The translations under genes and the position numbers were made by a program. A stretch of DNA of 36,879 nt from Candidatus Paceibacter sp. (GTDB taxonomy: Bacteria; Patescibacteriota; Patescibacteriia; Magasanikbacterales; UBA922), in assembly GCA_020725175.1 (NCBI GenBank), contig DYFM01000002.1, forward strand, positions 1-36,879, written 5' to 3'. Every line of letters begins with the position of its first letter. The first letter of the stretch is position 1. Shown here piece by piece: positions 10,600 to 23,746 of the stretch. The notes under the pieces were generated by a model. It made no database searches. It was not told where the DNA came from and was given only the letters and a program-made list of their open reading frames with translations.

Positions 10600-10625
10600 G
10601 TTTCTCTTTAAGCTAACACTCTGTT

Positions 10626-10882
10626 TGTATAGATTATTCTATACATCTGTGGATAAGTCTGGGGAAAAGAGCGTTAAAATGTGGAAAAGATTGAATAAAA
10701 AATGTTTCACCGCCTTTTTCCTCCGCCATTCCACCAGTTATCCAAACGTTATCCACGCATAATTCATCAATTTGTATAGATTATTCTATACATTGTGGAT
10801 AAGTATGTGAATAAAAGCTTAAAACTGTGGATAAGTTTAGGATTATGGCTGTGAATAATATTTGTATACAGTATTCTATACA
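10626..10882. other. DnaA-box cluster with three 20-bp palindromes (origin-like)
   Basis: Seven DnaA-box-like 9-mers lie within 211 bp. TGTGGATAA occurs at 10648, 10794 and 10826, TGTGAATAA at 10806 and 10850, and TTATCCAAA and TTATCCACG at 10738 and 10749. The palindrome TGTATAGA-TTAT-TCTATACA is perfect at 10626-10645 and 10773-10792, and has one mismatch at 10863-10882. The region is AT-rich and has no gene. It could be a second DnaA-binding locus, part of a replication origin, or a DnaA-controlled regulatory region for the ncRNA downstream. The palindromes would be a binding site for an unknown dimeric protein. Confidence 0.65.
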
Positions 10883-10955
10883 AAAAATTATTCATTGTTT
10901 TTATTACATTTTTTGCTATACAAAGCAAAATAATAACCATAGATTGACCAATATA

Positions 10956-10984
10956 TTGACAACAGAGCAAAAATGTGCTATTAT
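10956..10984 (+). promoter_or_regulatory. Strong sigma70-type promoter of the structured RNA
   Basis: TTGACA at 10956-10961 and TATTAT at 10979-10984 are separated by exactly 17 bp. This is one of the best promoter matches in the window. Transcription should begin near 10991. Confidence 0.8.
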
Positions 10985-10990
10985 GTATGT

Positions 10991-11422
10991 ATAAGCAATG
11001 AGTTTCGATCTTTCACAACGGTCCTCGGAAAACATGCCATAATGTTTTCGAAGGACCATCTCTTTACTGCTCACTTTTGCCAGACTTACCCTTGTGTATT
11101 CTCCGCTCACTGATGTATCAGTTGAGTACCTACGGATCGAGTACACATCAAGAAGTCACACAAACACAAACACGCAAATCTAGAGGCAAGTTTGGCAGCT
11201 CGGTGCGCTTCAGTTACGCATACCGTGGTCACCCCCGTGTATGTTGAGGCCCAACACCTTTCGAGCTGGTAAGGAGATATACCGTCCCCGGGACGGACTG
11301 TCGTATCAGACGATTTTGCTCTTCAAGACTCTTGAATGGCAAAACCGTCTGGTGACGATGCATCCTAGGGACTATAAGGCGATCAGCCACACTATTACCT
11401 AGGGCCTCGATCGCCTTTTTTT
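10991..11422 (+). ncRNA. Structured non-coding RNA of unknown family, about 430 nt
   Basis: A consensus promoter and an intrinsic terminator frame about 430 nt with no credible reading frame but many helices. These are 11020-11025/11052-11057 with an inner GAAAACA/TGTTTTC stem, a long-range 11078-11087/11188-11197 helix, 11196-11202/11262-11268 (CAGCTCG/CGAGCTG), CCGTCC/GGACGG at 11282-11296, and 11307-11319/11339-11351 (one mismatch) enclosing TTCAAG/CTTGAA. Two CCTAGG copies at 11364 and 11398 interleave with the terminator stem, which allows a pseudoknot or a switch. Size and expression signals suit a housekeeping RNA. However, the conserved RNase P (GAGGAAAGTCC) and tmRNA (GGTTCGAATCC-type 3' end) sequences are missing, and it is too long for a typical 6S or small SRP RNA. 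Confidence 0.7.
11378..11422 (+). terminator. Intrinsic terminator of the structured RNA
   Basis: GGCGATC at 11378-11384 pairs with GATCGCC at 11409-11415 and is followed at once by seven Ts. The 24-nt loop contains one of the two CCTAGG copies. Confidence 0.8.
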
Positions 11423-11427
11423 ATTTC

Positions 11428-11577
11428 CGAATTTACGAATGTTATCCGAATCTACCAATCTCCAAATCCACGAATGTGCTTGCCCACTCCAGATCGATGT
11501 AATACTGAAAGTAGAAGTGTAATACAATTCGCCGTATTCGTAGATTCGTAAATTTGTATAGTATTCGTAGGTTCGGA
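11428..11577. repeat. TTCGTA word-repeat tract with inverted halves
   Basis: The left half repeats CGAAT/ACGAAT words and the right half the complementary ATTCGTA words (ATTCGTAGATTCGTAAATT). The whole can therefore fold back on itself. Related tracts occur at 21995-22082 and 29948-29995. Confidence 0.6.
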
Positions 11578-11591
11578 TGATATATTTGGAC

Positions 11592-11719: not shown

Positions 11720-12118
11720 ATGACGAAAGTGCAACCAACCACCACCTACTCGGCTCAGTTTCTTGATGAGATTCGTATCCTTCTTGAAGCAGAAAAGGTT
11801 CGTCTTGAGGGTGAACTTTCAAAGTTTGCCACCAAAGTACCCGGAACCACCGCCAACTACGAGGCAGATTTCCCAGAGTTTGGGGATGAAGAAGATGATA
11901 ATGTGCACGAGATGGAAAAGTATGTCGTTGACAAATCTCTTGAAGAAACCCTTGAGAGCTCTCTTCGGGATGTAATCAAATCTCTCAAGCGACTCGACGA
12001 AGGAGCGTACGGTATTTGCAAATACTGTGACCAACCAATAGACGAAAAGCGGCTTTTGGCAAGACCAACTTCAAGCTCTTGTGTATCTTGTAAAAAAACC
12101 TTGACCCAAGAGGCGTAA
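11720..12118 (+). CDS. DksA/TraR-family C4 zinc-finger protein
   Basis: The 132-residue protein has an N-terminal helical region (about 10-90, coiled-coil-like and rich in Glu/Lys) and a C-terminal zinc finger with CKYC and CVSC pairs, separated by QPIDEKRLLARPTSS. This is the DksA/TraR fold, whose members bind the RNA polymerase secondary channel and adjust transcription during stress or growth change. An acidic segment (EFGDEEDDN) sits where DksA-type proteins carry their coiled-coil tip region. It has its own promoter with a TATAAT box at 11615. The next gene, lspA, begins 90 bp later, and a terminator-like hairpin lies inside the lspA start. Confidence 0.88.
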   Translation: MTKVQPTTTYSAQFLDEIRILLEAEKVRLEGELSKFATKVPGTTANYEADFPEFGDEEDDNVHEMEKYVVDKSLEETLESSLRDVIKSLKRLDEGAYGICKYCDQPIDEKRLLARPTSSSCVSCKKTLTQEA

Positions 12119-12208
12119 ATTTAGACCTATTGCTTTTCCCCTCTCTCAAACCCCTATCTGTTACGAATGTTGCTAGAACAACAAGTACATCGATTATTGT
12201 GTCTATCT

Positions 12209-12664
12209 ATGCCAAAAAAAACCCGCCTGATCCCTCCACTTCTCATCAGCGGGTTTTTTGTTTTACTTGATCAAACTTTTAAATACACGGCCCGGCTTAT
12301 TCCCGACCACTCATACTTCCCAATCCCCTATATCGGTTGGGATTATTTTGCCAACCCTGGCATTGCCTTTAGTTTACCGTTTCCCAACAGTGTTTTAATT
12401 ATTATCACCCCGATCATTGTACTCTTATTGGTGTTGCTTCTTCTCCGATCAGGAACAAGACAATCTAACCCTCTTTTTACCTTTGGCATCCTCCTCATTA
12501 TCGGCGGTGCAATTTCAAACTACATCGACCGTTTACTGTTTGAGGTCACCATTGATTACTTTCGCATTTTTACCGGTATTATCAATTTGGCGGATGTGAT
12601 GATTGTGGTTGGGGCTGGTTTACTTTTGTTGAGCGAGAGAAAAAAAGAAAAAAAATCATCTTGA
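12209..12664 (+). CDS. lspA: Lipoprotein signal peptidase (signal peptidase II)
   Basis: A 151-residue polytopic membrane protease that cleaves prolipoproteins after lipidation. Four hydrophobic segments are visible. The family motifs are present: LDQTFKY in the first helix, FANPGIAFSL for the usual N-x-G-x-A-F, and the two catalytic aspartates, Asp107 in SNYIDRLLF and Asp129 in NLADVMI. The ATG at 12209 gives the expected start just before helix 1; the upstream ATG at 12167 adds 14 atypical residues. A likely client, the SNase lipoprotein, is encoded at 2618. The first codons form an intrinsic-terminator-like hairpin (12214-12259). Confidence 0.92.
   Translation: MPKKTRLIPPLLISGFFVLLDQTFKYTARLIPDHSYFPIPYIGWDYFANPGIAFSLPFPNSVLIIITPIIVLLLVLLLLRSGTRQSNPLFTFGILLIIGGAISNYIDRLLFEVTIDYFRIFTGIINLADVMIVVGAGLLLLSERKKEKKSS
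12214..12259 (+). terminator. Terminator-like hairpin inside the lspA coding start
   Basis: A run of As and CCCGC(C)TGAT pair with ATCA-GCGGG followed by six or seven Ts, all within codons 2-17 of lspA. It may terminate part of the transcription coming from the DksA-like gene and so attenuate lspA. The coding sequence through it is needed for the first transmembrane helix. Confidence 0.55.
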
Positions 12665-19908: not shown

Positions 19909-20223
19909 ACACGTAATAGATTGATGATTGGATAATTTGTATAGTTCCGATACAAAAAATCTTTCGGTGCGAGGAGTATAGCTGAGTAAAGGGAAAATGT
20001 CAAGTTTATAACACGTAATTTTGTATACAACCACCGACTGGAGAAGCTGCCACGATGTAACACACCTATTTTTAACAATATTATGAACAAATCACTCAGA
20101 TCAACTTAGCCGGGGTTAATTTCCACCAGCTGCATATCAATAAATTCCCGCCATACCCCCTACTTTAGAGGAAGGATGGGGGCTGTAGGTGGATTGAATA
20201 TCAACCCAACAAGTTTTCCACAA

Positions 20224-20408
20224 CTATCCACAGTGAAAAAACTGCTAAACATAAATAAAATTTTGTTTTTCCTCAGAGCATGCTATATTATCCCCAGCTT
20301 TTTTCTATCAAATTGGGCATTTTTGTCCCTACTTATCCACACTCTCCACAACTTATCCACACATTACCCACTTTTTGGCTACTTCTAGCAATTTTTTCCT
20401 GTGAATAA
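20224..20408. other. DnaA boxes upstream of dnaA (putative oriC part)
   Basis: Perfect TTATCCACA boxes lie at 20333-20341 and 20353-20361. TTATCCCCA is at 20288, TGTGAATAA at 20400-20408 and a near box (CTATCCACA) at 20224. An AT-rich stretch to 20590 could serve as unwinding region. TACAAT at 20415-20420 next to the last box may be the dnaA -10, suggesting DnaA autoregulation. The rpmH-dnaA gap is a common oriC position. Apart from these sites, the 700-bp gap shows no gene. Confidence 0.7.
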
Positions 20409-20608
20409 ATATGGTACAATGGGACTCACACGAAAGCCATACATTTTTACACGGCTTCGGTAAGACACACATCACAAAAAATACCAATAAAATAGCTAAA
20501 ATAAAACAAAAAATATAAAACCCAAGTACACCAACCTTCAAAATACAAAAATTACACCCACCAACACCCGAAGCAAACAAATAAACCATTCATCCAATCA
20601 ACTCTTCT

Positions 20609-21988
20609 ATGACAAATTTTGAGATTTGGGATGCGGTTCTGGCAGATTTTGAACTGCGAGTTTCCAAAGCAAACTTTACTACCTGGTTCAAACACACCGG
20701 CATCGCGACATTCCAGGAGGGGCAGGTTGTTATCTGTGTTCCCAATCAGTTTACCAAGAGCTGGCTTGAGAAAAAATATCATTCTGACCTTATAAAAACC
20801 CTGGAGCGCGTTACCGGCCGACCGGTAAAAAAGATTGATTACCATGTCGACCAACTCAAAAATATAGAAGAAAAAGAGTGTACTGTCTCTGAGCGTCCGA
20901 TTGTTTCCTCTATTTCAAACCCGATTTACTCCGTTCCAAAAACCACTCTCGCTTCACAGTACAACCTAAACCCCAAGTACACATTCAACACCTTTATTGT
21001 TGGAAAGGCAAACGAGCTAGCCCACGCCGCGGCTCAGGCAGTAGCCGCAAGACCAGGCGAAGCGTACAACCCCCTCTTTATCTATGGTGGTGTAGGATTG
21101 GGAAAGACCCACCTGATCCAAGCAATTGGCCACACCATGCTTGAGGCCAATCCTCAAACTCGCATTTTATATGTGAGTATGGAAAAATTCACCAACGAAT
21201 TCATTGCTGCCGTAAAAGAAGGACGAGCGAAAGAATTTAAAGAACGGTACCGAAATGTTGATTTGCTTTTAATTGACGATATTCAGTTTATTGGTGGAAA
21301 AGAACAAACCCAAGAGGAGTTCTTTCACACCTTTAACGAATTACATCAGAACTCAAAACAGGTTGTCTTAACCAGTGACCGCCCACCAAAAGCTATCCCC
21401 ACCCTTGAAGATCGTTTACGCAGCCGATTTGAATGGGGAATGATTGTAGACATCGGTTCACCTGACCTAGAAACTCGACGAGCTATTCTCCAAGCCAAAG
21501 CACAAGAAAAAAAGTTTTTCTTACCGGACGAACTAGCACAACTTATCGCCGCCAATGTGCAGAGTAACATTCGTGAACTTGAAGGCGCTCTCAATAAAAT
21601 TATCGCCTACCATGAACTCAAAAACATGGAACCCTCCAAAGAGTCCATCAAGTCAATTCTCGCAACCGCCGCTATCCAACACACTAGAAAATCAGCCACA
21701 CCTCGCGATATTGTTGCGGCAGTTATCAAGTATTATGATGTTCAAGAGATCGATATTCTCGGAAAAAGCCGAGAAAAGAAGTTGTCGTTTCCTCGTCAAA
21801 TTATCATGTACCTCATGCGAGAAGAACTCAAACTCTCCTTCCCAGCAATTGGTGATGAGCTAGGGGGACGTGATCACACCACAGCGATGCATGCACACAC
21901 CAAAATATTGAATGAGGTGGAAAACGATCTCAAACTCAAACAAGATATTGAATCTATTAAGCAACAATTGTACGCGGAGAGCGTATAG
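20609..21988 (+). CDS. dnaA: Chromosomal replication initiator protein DnaA
   Basis: The 459-residue protein has all four DnaA domains. An N-terminal helicase-interaction domain (1-~78, FEIWDAVLADFEL) and a short linker (~80-115) precede the AAA+ core with Walker A GGVGLGKTH (160-168) and Walker B LLLIDDIQFI (219-228). A C-terminal DNA-binding domain with the signature GGRDHTTAMHAH follows (about 424-435). It binds DnaA boxes and ATP to open the origin and load the helicase. The linker domain is shorter than in E. coli. Boxes lie on both sides of the gene and at 10626-10882. No Shine-Dalgarno site is visible before the ATG. Confidence 0.97.
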   Translation: MTNFEIWDAVLADFELRVSKANFTTWFKHTGIATFQEGQVVICVPNQFTKSWLEKKYHSDLIKTLERVTGRPVKKIDYHVDQLKNIEEKECTVSERPIVSSISNPIYSVPKTTLASQYNLNPKYTFNTFIVGKANELAHAAAQAVAARPGEAYNPLFIYGGVGLGKTHLIQAIGHTMLEANPQTRILYVSMEKFTNEFIAAVKEGRAKEFKERYRNVDLLLIDDIQFIGGKEQTQEEFFHTFNELHQNSKQVVLTSDRPPKAIPTLEDRLRSRFEWGMIVDIGSPDLETRRAILQAKAQEKKFFLPDELAQLIAANVQSNIRELEGALNKIIAYHELKNMEPSKESIKSILATAAIQHTRKSATPRDIVAAVIKYYDVQEIDILGKSREKKLSFPRQIIMYLMREELKLSFPAIGDELGGRDHTTAMHAHTKILNEVENDLKLKQDIESIKQQLYAESV

Positions 21989-21994
21989 GCAGAT

Positions 21995-22082
21995 ACGAAT
22001 TACGAATCTTTCGAATATTCGAATAAACACCCATTCCCTTTTAGTATCCTTCTCATATTCGTACATTCGGAAGATTCGTAAA
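21995..22082. repeat. TTCGAA/TTCGTA word-repeat tract after dnaA
   Basis: ACGAATTACGAATC, TTCGAATATTCGAAT, TATTCGTACATTCGG and GATTCGTAAAT follow one another. The words are of the same family as those at 11428-11577 and 29948-29995. Confidence 0.6.
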
Positions 22083-22092
22083 TGAGTTTCCC

Positions 22093-22175
22093 CGCCGCAA
22101 GCGGACGAGGTATCACTATAGGAAAATCCGTAGCAAGCTACGGGAAATAAGACCCTCGTCCGCCTTGGGCGGATT
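22093..22175. other. Branched hairpin structure in the dnaA-dnaN gap
   Basis: GCGGACGAGG (22101-22110) pairs with CCTCGTCCGC (22154-22163) and encloses CCGTAGC-AA-GCTACGG (22128-22143). Small flanking stems CCGC/GCGG and CCGCC/GGCGG lie at both ends. The T tract is poor, so it is more like a REP-type palindrome than a terminator. Confidence 0.65.
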
Positions 22176-22253
22176 CAAACCTAAAAAAATTTCAAACAAA
22201 CCAGGATAAGCTGTGGACGAAATAAGTATAAGTATGCGGACAACATATTATCT

Positions 22254-22400
22254 CTATCCCCACAAGTTGTGTACAATAGTATCACTTATCCCCACTATAA
22301 AATACCCACTCTAATTGTCCCCACCCTTCATACACACAATCACAAAATCTATCCCCACCAACAAATCGCTTAACATAAAACAAATATCACCTTATCCCCA
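22254..22400. other. Four yTATCCCCA boxes between dnaA and dnaN
   Basis: CTATCCCCA at 22254 and 22349 and TTATCCCCA at 22286 and 22392 all lie in the same orientation in an AT-rich region. They differ from the consensus DnaA box by one or two bases and may be weak or lineage-specific DnaA sites of oriC. TACAAT at 22272-22277 could be a -10 for dnaN. The remaining sequence to 22621 is AT-rich without a gene. Confidence 0.55.
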
Positions 22401-22621
22401 CTGTCCACACCCCTTATTACTTATTACTAGATATATAAATATATAAATTGATTGAACTGGAACGGATTGGGTTGTTGGGTAAAAGAAATACAAAACAGTA
22501 AAACAAACCATGTTGAAGGTAATGAAAAAACACAAAATACTTTTTAATCGGTAAACAAACCAACTCTTTATTTTATTAACATATAAATCACTTCCCTTCT
22601 AATTCTTAACATCACCAGTAT

Positions 22622-23746
22622 ATGCGTTTTACTTGTACTAGAGAGAATCTCCATCAGGCACTGAGTGTAGTGGGTGGTGTTTCAAGTAAGCAGGTCAACT
22701 TACCGATTCTTTCGAATATTTACATCGAGGCAAAAGAATCAAACGTGGAGGTGGTGAGTACTGATCTTGAAATTGCTGTTCGGGTTCGAGTTCGGGCAAA
22801 AGTGGATGAGCCAGGGGTATTTACCGTGCCGGCAAAGACATTTTCTGACTATGTATCACTTATTACAGACGCGCAGGTGAGTGTTTCACTTACCGGTAAT
22901 GAATTGAAGGTAGAGAATGGTCAAAGTAGTACAAAAATCAAAGGAATGCCGGCTGAAGACTACCCGGTCATTCCTGAGATACAAGAAGACCATGGGTATG
23001 TGTTTGATCGGGAGGAGTTGAAAGAGGGGCTGGCACGAGTGATTATTGCGACCGCAAAAACAGACATGCGTCCGGAGCTCTCTGGGGTATATATGGGGTT
23101 TTTTACCGAACGGCACGCTGGTTTAGTACTTGCCGCGACTGACTCGTATCGTTTATCGGAAAAGAGAGTGAAGGTGCAGAATGGTGAGGATCAGCTTATG
23201 GCGATTTTACCAGGAAAAACGGCACAGGAAGTTGCTCGACTCCTTTCCCTTGCCAAAGGTGAAGATGGGGATAACATGGTGCATGTATTTCTCAGTGATT
23301 CACAATTTGGGTTGAGAATAGATGGAATTGAACTAACGAGTCGTTTGGTGGAAGGTAGATATCCAGACTATGCACAAATTATCCCCACCGAGTTTAAGAC
23401 GGTAGCAACAGCACCGGCAGATTTATTGGTAAAGAAAATTAAAGCGGCGAGTTTGTTTAGTACTACCGGGGTTAATGGTGTAACGATGAATATTTCTGCT
23501 TCAGATAAACAAATTCATATTTCTTCTCTGAGTAATCAGACTGGTGAACACAATTCTTCACTTGAAGTTGAGGTGACTGGTGAGGATAATGCTATTCTTC
23601 TAAACTTTCGCTACACACTTGATGGATTGCAGCAAATGGTGGACGGCGAGGTGGAGTTTTGTGTGAATAGTGGTGACGCGCCCTGTGTCTTCCGACCAGT
23701 AGGGAAAGAAGATTTTTTGTATATTGTGATGCCGATACGTAAGTAG
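22622..23746 (+). CDS. dnaN: DNA polymerase III beta subunit (sliding clamp)
   Basis: The 374-residue product matches the beta clamp over its whole length, with three repeated domains. The N-terminus MRFTCTRENLHQALSVVGGV, the LPILSNIYIEAK segment, RLVEGRYPDY in the second/third-domain region, and the C-terminal FLYIVMPIRK are typical. It forms the dimeric ring that tethers replicative polymerase to DNA and binds partner proteins. It follows dnaA with a 630-bp gap that contains origin-like repeats, so it probably has its own promoter. Confidence 0.97.
   Translation: MRFTCTRENLHQALSVVGGVSSKQVNLPILSNIYIEAKESNVEVVSTDLEIAVRVRVRAKVDEPGVFTVPAKTFSDYVSLITDAQVSVSLTGNELKVENGQSSTKIKGMPAEDYPVIPEIQEDHGYVFDREELKEGLARVIIATAKTDMRPELSGVYMGFFTERHAGLVLAATDSYRLSEKRVKVQNGEDQLMAILPGKTAQEVARLLSLAKGEDGDNMVHVFLSDSQFGLRIDGIELTSRLVEGRYPDYAQIIPTEFKTVATAPADLLVKKIKAASLFSTTGVNGVTMNISASDKQIHISSLSNQTGEHNSSLEVEVTGEDNAILLNFRYTLDGLQQMVDGEVEFCVNSGDAPCVFRPVGKEDFLYIVMPIRK

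Follow-up and report, generated by a model that had tools for sequence, protein, structure and literature searches.

A DnaA-box and palindrome cluster near dnaA in Candidatus Magasanikbacteria lies upstream of a conserved promoter for a predicted structured RNA

The closest described relatives of the locus reported here are DnaA-box clusters outside the replication origin and promoters controlled by DnaA. The datA locus combines four DnaA boxes with a single IHF site, and transcription across the locus is important for datA (PMC10950094). In Bacillus subtilis, joint removal of six DnaA-box clusters leads to early initiation, and DnaA controls transcription of sda, which links replication to another process (PMC5295017). 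DnaA is a known transcription factor (PMC4447404), and a second regulator can act on DnaA-bound DNA, as AdpA does at the Streptomyces oriC and Spo0A at the B. subtilis oriC (PMC3411110, PMC5295017).

We analysed a stretch of 36,879 nucleotides (the window; contig DYFM01000002.1 of assembly GCA_020725175.1) from Candidatus Paceibacter sp., a member of the Magasanikbacterales within the Patescibacteria (CPR). The Magasanikbacteria are tiny bacteria that have been little studied. Most Patescibacteria grow on other microbes and have been described from metagenomes only, and to our knowledge little is known about the timing of their replication. The features discussed below are as follows, in window coordinates.

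10626–10645, no strand: palindrome 1, TGTATAGATTATTCTATACA, read directly from the sequence; module kept in relatives
10648–10656, + strand: DnaA box TGTGGATAA, 22 bp past the palindrome start, with its partner TGTGGAAAA at +32
10680–10688, + strand: DnaA box TGTGGAAAA, 1 mismatch, from the box scan
10738–10757, − strand: two DnaA boxes, TTATCCAAA (10738–10746) and TTATCCACG (10749–10757), from the box scan
10773–10792, no strand: palindrome P1 of the conserved module, an exact TGTATAGATTATTCTATACA copy, from the layout comparison
10794–10834, + strand: box triple of conserved arrangement, TGTGGATAA at 10794, TGTGAATAA at 10806 (+12) and TGTGGATAA at 10826 (+32)
10850–10858, + strand: additional DnaA box TGTGAATAA, from the box scan
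10863–10882, no strand: palindrome P2, 5' of the promoter, from the layout comparison
10956–10984, + strand: predicted sigma-70-type promoter, −35 TTGACA (10956–10961), 17-bp spacer, −10 TATTAT (10979–10984), from a 21-locus alignment
10991–11421, + strand: predicted structured non-coding RNA of ~430 nt with a 3' terminator hairpin, its start placed from the promoter
11306–11352, + strand: long RNA hairpin with compensatory changes, from pair counts
11377–11421, + strand: terminator hairpin whose inner GCC...GGC pairing is conserved, together with a T-run, from the alignment
11720–12118, + strand: dksA/traR-type zinc-finger gene, the next conserved gene downstream, from gene order in the family
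12167–12664, + strand: lspA (signal peptidase II), from gene order in the family
20214–22400, no strand: likely oriC region, with DnaA boxes flanking dnaA (20214–20408 and 22286–22400), placed by the GC-skew switch
20609–21988, + strand: dnaA, by gene match
22622–23746, + strand: dnaN, adjoined by the GC-skew minimum at 22616

The initial annotation had described seven DnaA-box-like sites within 211 bp, interleaved with three 20-bp palindromes. The site cluster stands, but the count does not: allowing at most one mismatch to TGTGGATAA, 8 boxes lie within the 211 bp from 10648 to 10858, 6 of them on the forward strand (starts 10648, 10680, 10794, 10806, 10826 and 10850) and 2 on the reverse (10738 and 10749). 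No more than 3 boxes per 211 bp were found in 300 dinucleotide-preserving shuffles of the window and the cluster is kept in relatives, supporting a genuine cluster outside oriC. It is the densest 300 bp on its 118-kb contig (8 boxes against 6) and, as had been claimed, denser than the sites at dnaA, with 6 (20214–20408) and 2 (22286–22400) boxes; the distance to dnaA (20609), given as 10 kb, measures 9.7 kb. All three palindromes are present among the boxes but are imperfect, with 2 mismatches between strands in the two exact copies of TGTATAGATTATTCTATACA (10626–10645 and 10773–10792), while the third, TGTATACAGTATTCTATACA at 10863–10882, differs from TGTATAGATTATTCTATACA at 2 positions. The genome-wide search that had been proposed found exact TGTATAGATTATTCTATACA only at 10626 and 10773, with no further exact copies across the 1.24-Mb genome. 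In many relatives the interval from P2 to the promoter holds a recurrent A+T-rich motif resembling TTTTAGCTAAAATAAGC, of which the window has a weaker version at 10883–10955.

Comparison with sister genomes, another proposed check, showed strong conservation of boxes and palindromes in Ca. Magasanikbacteria. The composite pattern of palindrome and DnaA boxes was found in 22 stretches among 84,980 species genomes, labelled Candidatus Magasanikbacteria (20), "Patescibacteria group bacterium" (1) and "bacterium" (1), and across 38 relatives searched at the DNA level the cluster proved widespread in the family. In 32 genomes the layout runs from the start of P1 over 21–23 bp to box 0 (the layout script limited this offset to 20–23; unrestricted listings agree), followed by boxes at +12 and +32, P2 and a sigma-70-type promoter. 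P2 mostly starts 59–62, 68–72 or 79–80 bp from box 0; these groups of ~60, 70 and 80 bp suggest a possible helical phasing, in a test that ignores kinship and with spacing statistics that overstate the evidence because the genomes are related. From the end of P2 to the −35 element there are mostly 53–61 bp in the 32 genomes, and 73 bp in the window. Searched across 39 genomes, the two-box pattern with N23 spacing falls on the cluster locus in nearly every member of the same family. The boxes thus occupy a conserved position upstream of a promoter, as is looked for in DnaA-controlled promoters. In some genomes, among them this one, the module recurs at a greater distance upstream; a single promoter would not need this second copy, which counts against promoter control.

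What the initial annotation did not mention is that a conserved promoter, predicted to drive a structured RNA, has the cluster as its upstream region. In nearly all of 20 loci fetched, the order is cluster, promoter, RNA, dksA and lspA, usually followed by yifB, the exceptions being one locus with the dksA-type gene unrecognised (L022) and one whose sequence ends before it (L032); the gene 5' of the cluster varies from genome to genome. The promoter is strongly conserved across the 21 aligned loci, with −35 TTGACA and a −10 near TATAAT in relatives, and the stretch from there to dksA holds no conserved open reading frames and ends in the terminator. Compensatory base changes across relatives, the mark of a structured non-coding RNA, were found on both sides of 16/25 helix pairs. 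The proportion of paired cells was 91.1% compared to 77.1% after shuffling, with the structure chosen by hand on the same sequences, which biases this percentage and not the compensatory changes. Covariation was 0.494 versus 0.212 in shuffles, and structures slid along the alignment dropped to 29–49% paired. RNAalifold, run on a longer alignment, recovered the main hairpin only.

A covariance model of the 3' part of the RNA (R1) matched 26 of the 86 genomes of the order, at one place each besides opposite-strand shadows, and eight loci outside its building set at E<1e-4. Eleven genomes were reached only through R1, ten from the same family and one (G049, a weak match) from another; upstream of the RNA, all 11 R1-only genomes counted, those with enough upstream sequence, carried a palindrome followed by one box at a distance of 21–23 bp and another at +32. 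No Rfam family scored above its gathering score at the locus, and tmRNA and RNase P RNA were rejected as identities, since the RF00023 and RF00010 genes lie on contigs C23 and C6 instead. Our literature search found no paper on DnaA sites or on an RNA at this locus in Magasanikbacteria. Several other features of the region were seen. A possible pseudoknot at 11360–11410 would pair CCUAGG before the terminator with CCUAGG in its loop; related pairings are visible, and plausible, by eye in several relatives, and were left out of the pair counts because the register shifts in the alignment. In two loci (L026 and L032) a hairpin-forming palindrome of the cluster type lies inside the RNA gene. At 11426–11590 of the window, an CGAATTTACGAATG-type sequence recurs elsewhere in the genome and in relatives as a dispersed intergenic repeat.

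The repeated palindrome had been taken to imply a second, dimeric binding protein, and this idea gained from the comparison: putative sites are kept in relatives, and a candidate protein was found. With the pattern TGTATASANTANTSTATACA at no more than 1 mismatch, 30/39 genomes matched, compared to 0 for the reversed pattern used as a control. The second place where sites occur, often paired ~65–135 bp apart, is the divergent promoter between an ECF sigma factor gene and a gene that we call c0, encoding a protein of ~110 aa with an HTH_17 domain. In this genome c0 scored 30.3 bits against PF12728 (cut-off 27) and 21.6 bits against TIGR01764, under the cut-off of 28.8; no solved structure matching it by sequence was found. 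It is chromosomal, present in single copy in 36/39 genomes, and preceded by palindromes in 27 of the 30 loci read. In genus g24 the palindrome takes the form AGTATA...TATACT, at the cluster in G023 and G066 and at the c0 promoter in G023; the outer bases of G023, A...T replacing T...A, are thus changed identically at both places, and c0 is therefore the likely binder and the best candidate for one. Family f6 has c0 and no recognisable palindromes, and c0 could instead be co-regulated by the palindrome binder. One genome (G037) retains the sigma-factor locus but has neither c0 nor palindromes nor spaced boxes. The absence of c0 from G018 is only apparent, its initial residues and palindromes being visible and the remainder falling in a masked stretch; in G017 the search turned up no more than a distant sigma factor, and the assembly may therefore lack the c0 locus. 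At the locus in our genome (L033 2563–10001, contig C28), two palindromes lie in the promoter shared by c0 and the sigma factor gene, and next come genes for a protein with weak similarity to DUF5667 and for a large protein that is probably secreted; this locus is conserved.

The initial annotation had also raised the possibility of a true or second origin at the cluster, with cumulative GC skew as a check, and here the result went against it. Skew is mostly negative up to ~22.6 kb and positive beyond, and its cumulative minimum on the full contig is 22616, 6 bases 5' of dnaN. In three relatives the minimum likewise lies at dnaA/dnaN (122534, dnaA match ending at 122253; 133081, dnaA match ending at 132812; 55220, dnaA match on the reverse strand at 55975–57315). 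The minimum is about 11–30 kb from the cluster in these four genomes, and no switch of skew arm occurs at the cluster, which lies wholly inside one arm. Wherever both share one contig the cluster is within about 30 kb of dnaA (usually 8–30 kb), and in most such relatives it is oriented toward dnaA, on either side, so the block has undergone inversion about the origin and has stayed close to it. A single-contig genome of 984 kb (G074) has one skew minimum and one maximum, a profile that goes no further than supporting a single origin, since 816–888 kb is N and the rest gave no dnaA match. The cluster does resemble an origin in joining a DnaA-box array (8 boxes) to an A+T-rich stretch, with 70% A+T over 10600–10990 compared to 64% in the dnaA flanks. 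However, it is not at the GC-skew switch, which adjoins dnaA/dnaN in 4/4 genomes, and it lies on either side of dnaA depending on the genome; we rejected an origin at the cluster as highly improbable.

We lean slightly towards reading the cluster as a composite DnaA and HTH_17 regulatory element that would control a replication-coupled RNA of ~430 nt. DnaA would bind the box triple (0, +12, +32), while c0, a small excisionase/MerR-like HTH_17 protein, would occupy the flanking palindromes as a dimer; the two would form a nucleoprotein complex just 5' of RNA polymerase that would act on the promoter beyond P2. Output of the RNA would then track DnaA activity and the initiation of replication, and the RNA may carry a DnaA-state signal onward to a target; sequence cannot tell activation from repression. 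Established here are the sites, the conservation of their layout, their association with the RNA and its promoter, and the location of the origin elsewhere, and a conserved switch before a structured RNA near the origin suggests that RNA production may be tied to chromosome copying. The promoter-adjacent position could also fit a titrating element lying upstream by chance, and we regard as rather unlikely, though worth weighing, a datA- or DARS-like element that collects DnaA or alters its nucleotide state to time initiation, with the palindrome protein in the part played by IHF or Fis in E. coli and the RNA promoter incidental. Dense boxes with sites for an accompanying protein, within about 30 kb of dnaA on shared contigs, fit such an element, as does the make-up of datA, one IHF site and four DnaA boxes, where transcription through the locus matters too (PMC10950094). 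Yet a sink needs neither tight spacing to a conserved promoter nor a strict tie to one RNA, and the partner site here is a different kind of palindrome. A sink or inactivator of the datA kind and promoter control could also be mutually compatible, acting through the same DNA.

Palindromes also occur near the chromosome partitioning sites. On the contig of the cluster (C29), parS-like sites (no more than 2 mismatches, one exact) lie at 46619–47605 with a palindrome among them at 47253 and a degenerate DnaA-box module at 47639–47687, so that parS cluster, palindrome and box module (46619–47687; L046 10620–11690) stand together upstream of an rmuC-like gene. The ParB gene is on contig C25. The palindromes themselves were rejected as parS, differing from the 16-bp TGTTTCACGTGAAACA-like site. 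The palindrome protein thus has candidate sites at three types of place, two in the origin region and one at what would be its own gene. A role for c0 in bridging or marking both the parS region and the DnaA cluster, as an element of origin-domain organisation or segregation, would agree with palindromes among or beside parS-like sites in G000 (this genome), G002, G005, G010 and G013 and with DnaA boxes adjoining parS in G000 and G002; we nevertheless judge it improbable, as canonical parS and ParB exist separately and palindromes also occupy the ordinary divergent promoter of c0 and the sigma factor, which points to a transcription regulator. Only tentatively do we extend the composite-element reading to a circuit in which a lineage-specific HTH_17 regulator of Magasanikbacteria acts together with DnaA to control a new large structured RNA next to the origin and, in addition, marks its own promoter and the parS region, an origin-domain control circuit with an RNA output of a kind not described elsewhere.

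Three things come out of the analysis, a DNA element that is conserved, a candidate for its partner protein and a new family of RNA, and an exact prediction attaches to each. Should the composite-element reading hold, a large regulatory RNA would be tied to DnaA, and DnaA clusters outside oriC would prove to occur in bacteria far removed from E. coli and Bacillus, alongside partner proteins that are unrelated. In common with E. coli datA and DARS1/2, the locus is non-coding, lies outside oriC and combines a cluster of several DnaA boxes with sites for another DNA-binding protein (PMC10950094, PMC5295017). It differs in having a 20-bp palindrome and a likely HTH_17 protein in place of IHF or Fis, a fixed box spacing of 0/+12/+32, a position usually 8–30 kb from dnaA, and a tie to the promoter of a predicted structured RNA. 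Because partner site, spacing and likely output differ, we place it, known as it is from sequence alone, among extra-oriC DnaA clusters and DnaA-controlled promoters, not with datA. It would share DnaA control outside the origin with the regulated promoters and clusters of B. subtilis such as sda; the differences are that it probably makes a structured RNA instead of a small protein and that its array incorporates a second conserved palindrome. As with AdpA and Spo0A, a second regulator would sit at DNA also bound by DnaA; those proteins act at the origin itself, whereas this array is off-origin and its likely regulator belongs to another family. Among HTH_17/excisionase-type proteins (PF12728, TIGR01764), c0 passes PF12728 and falls below the TIGR01764 cut-off, and it stands apart in being chromosomal, single copy and divergent from an ECF sigma factor.
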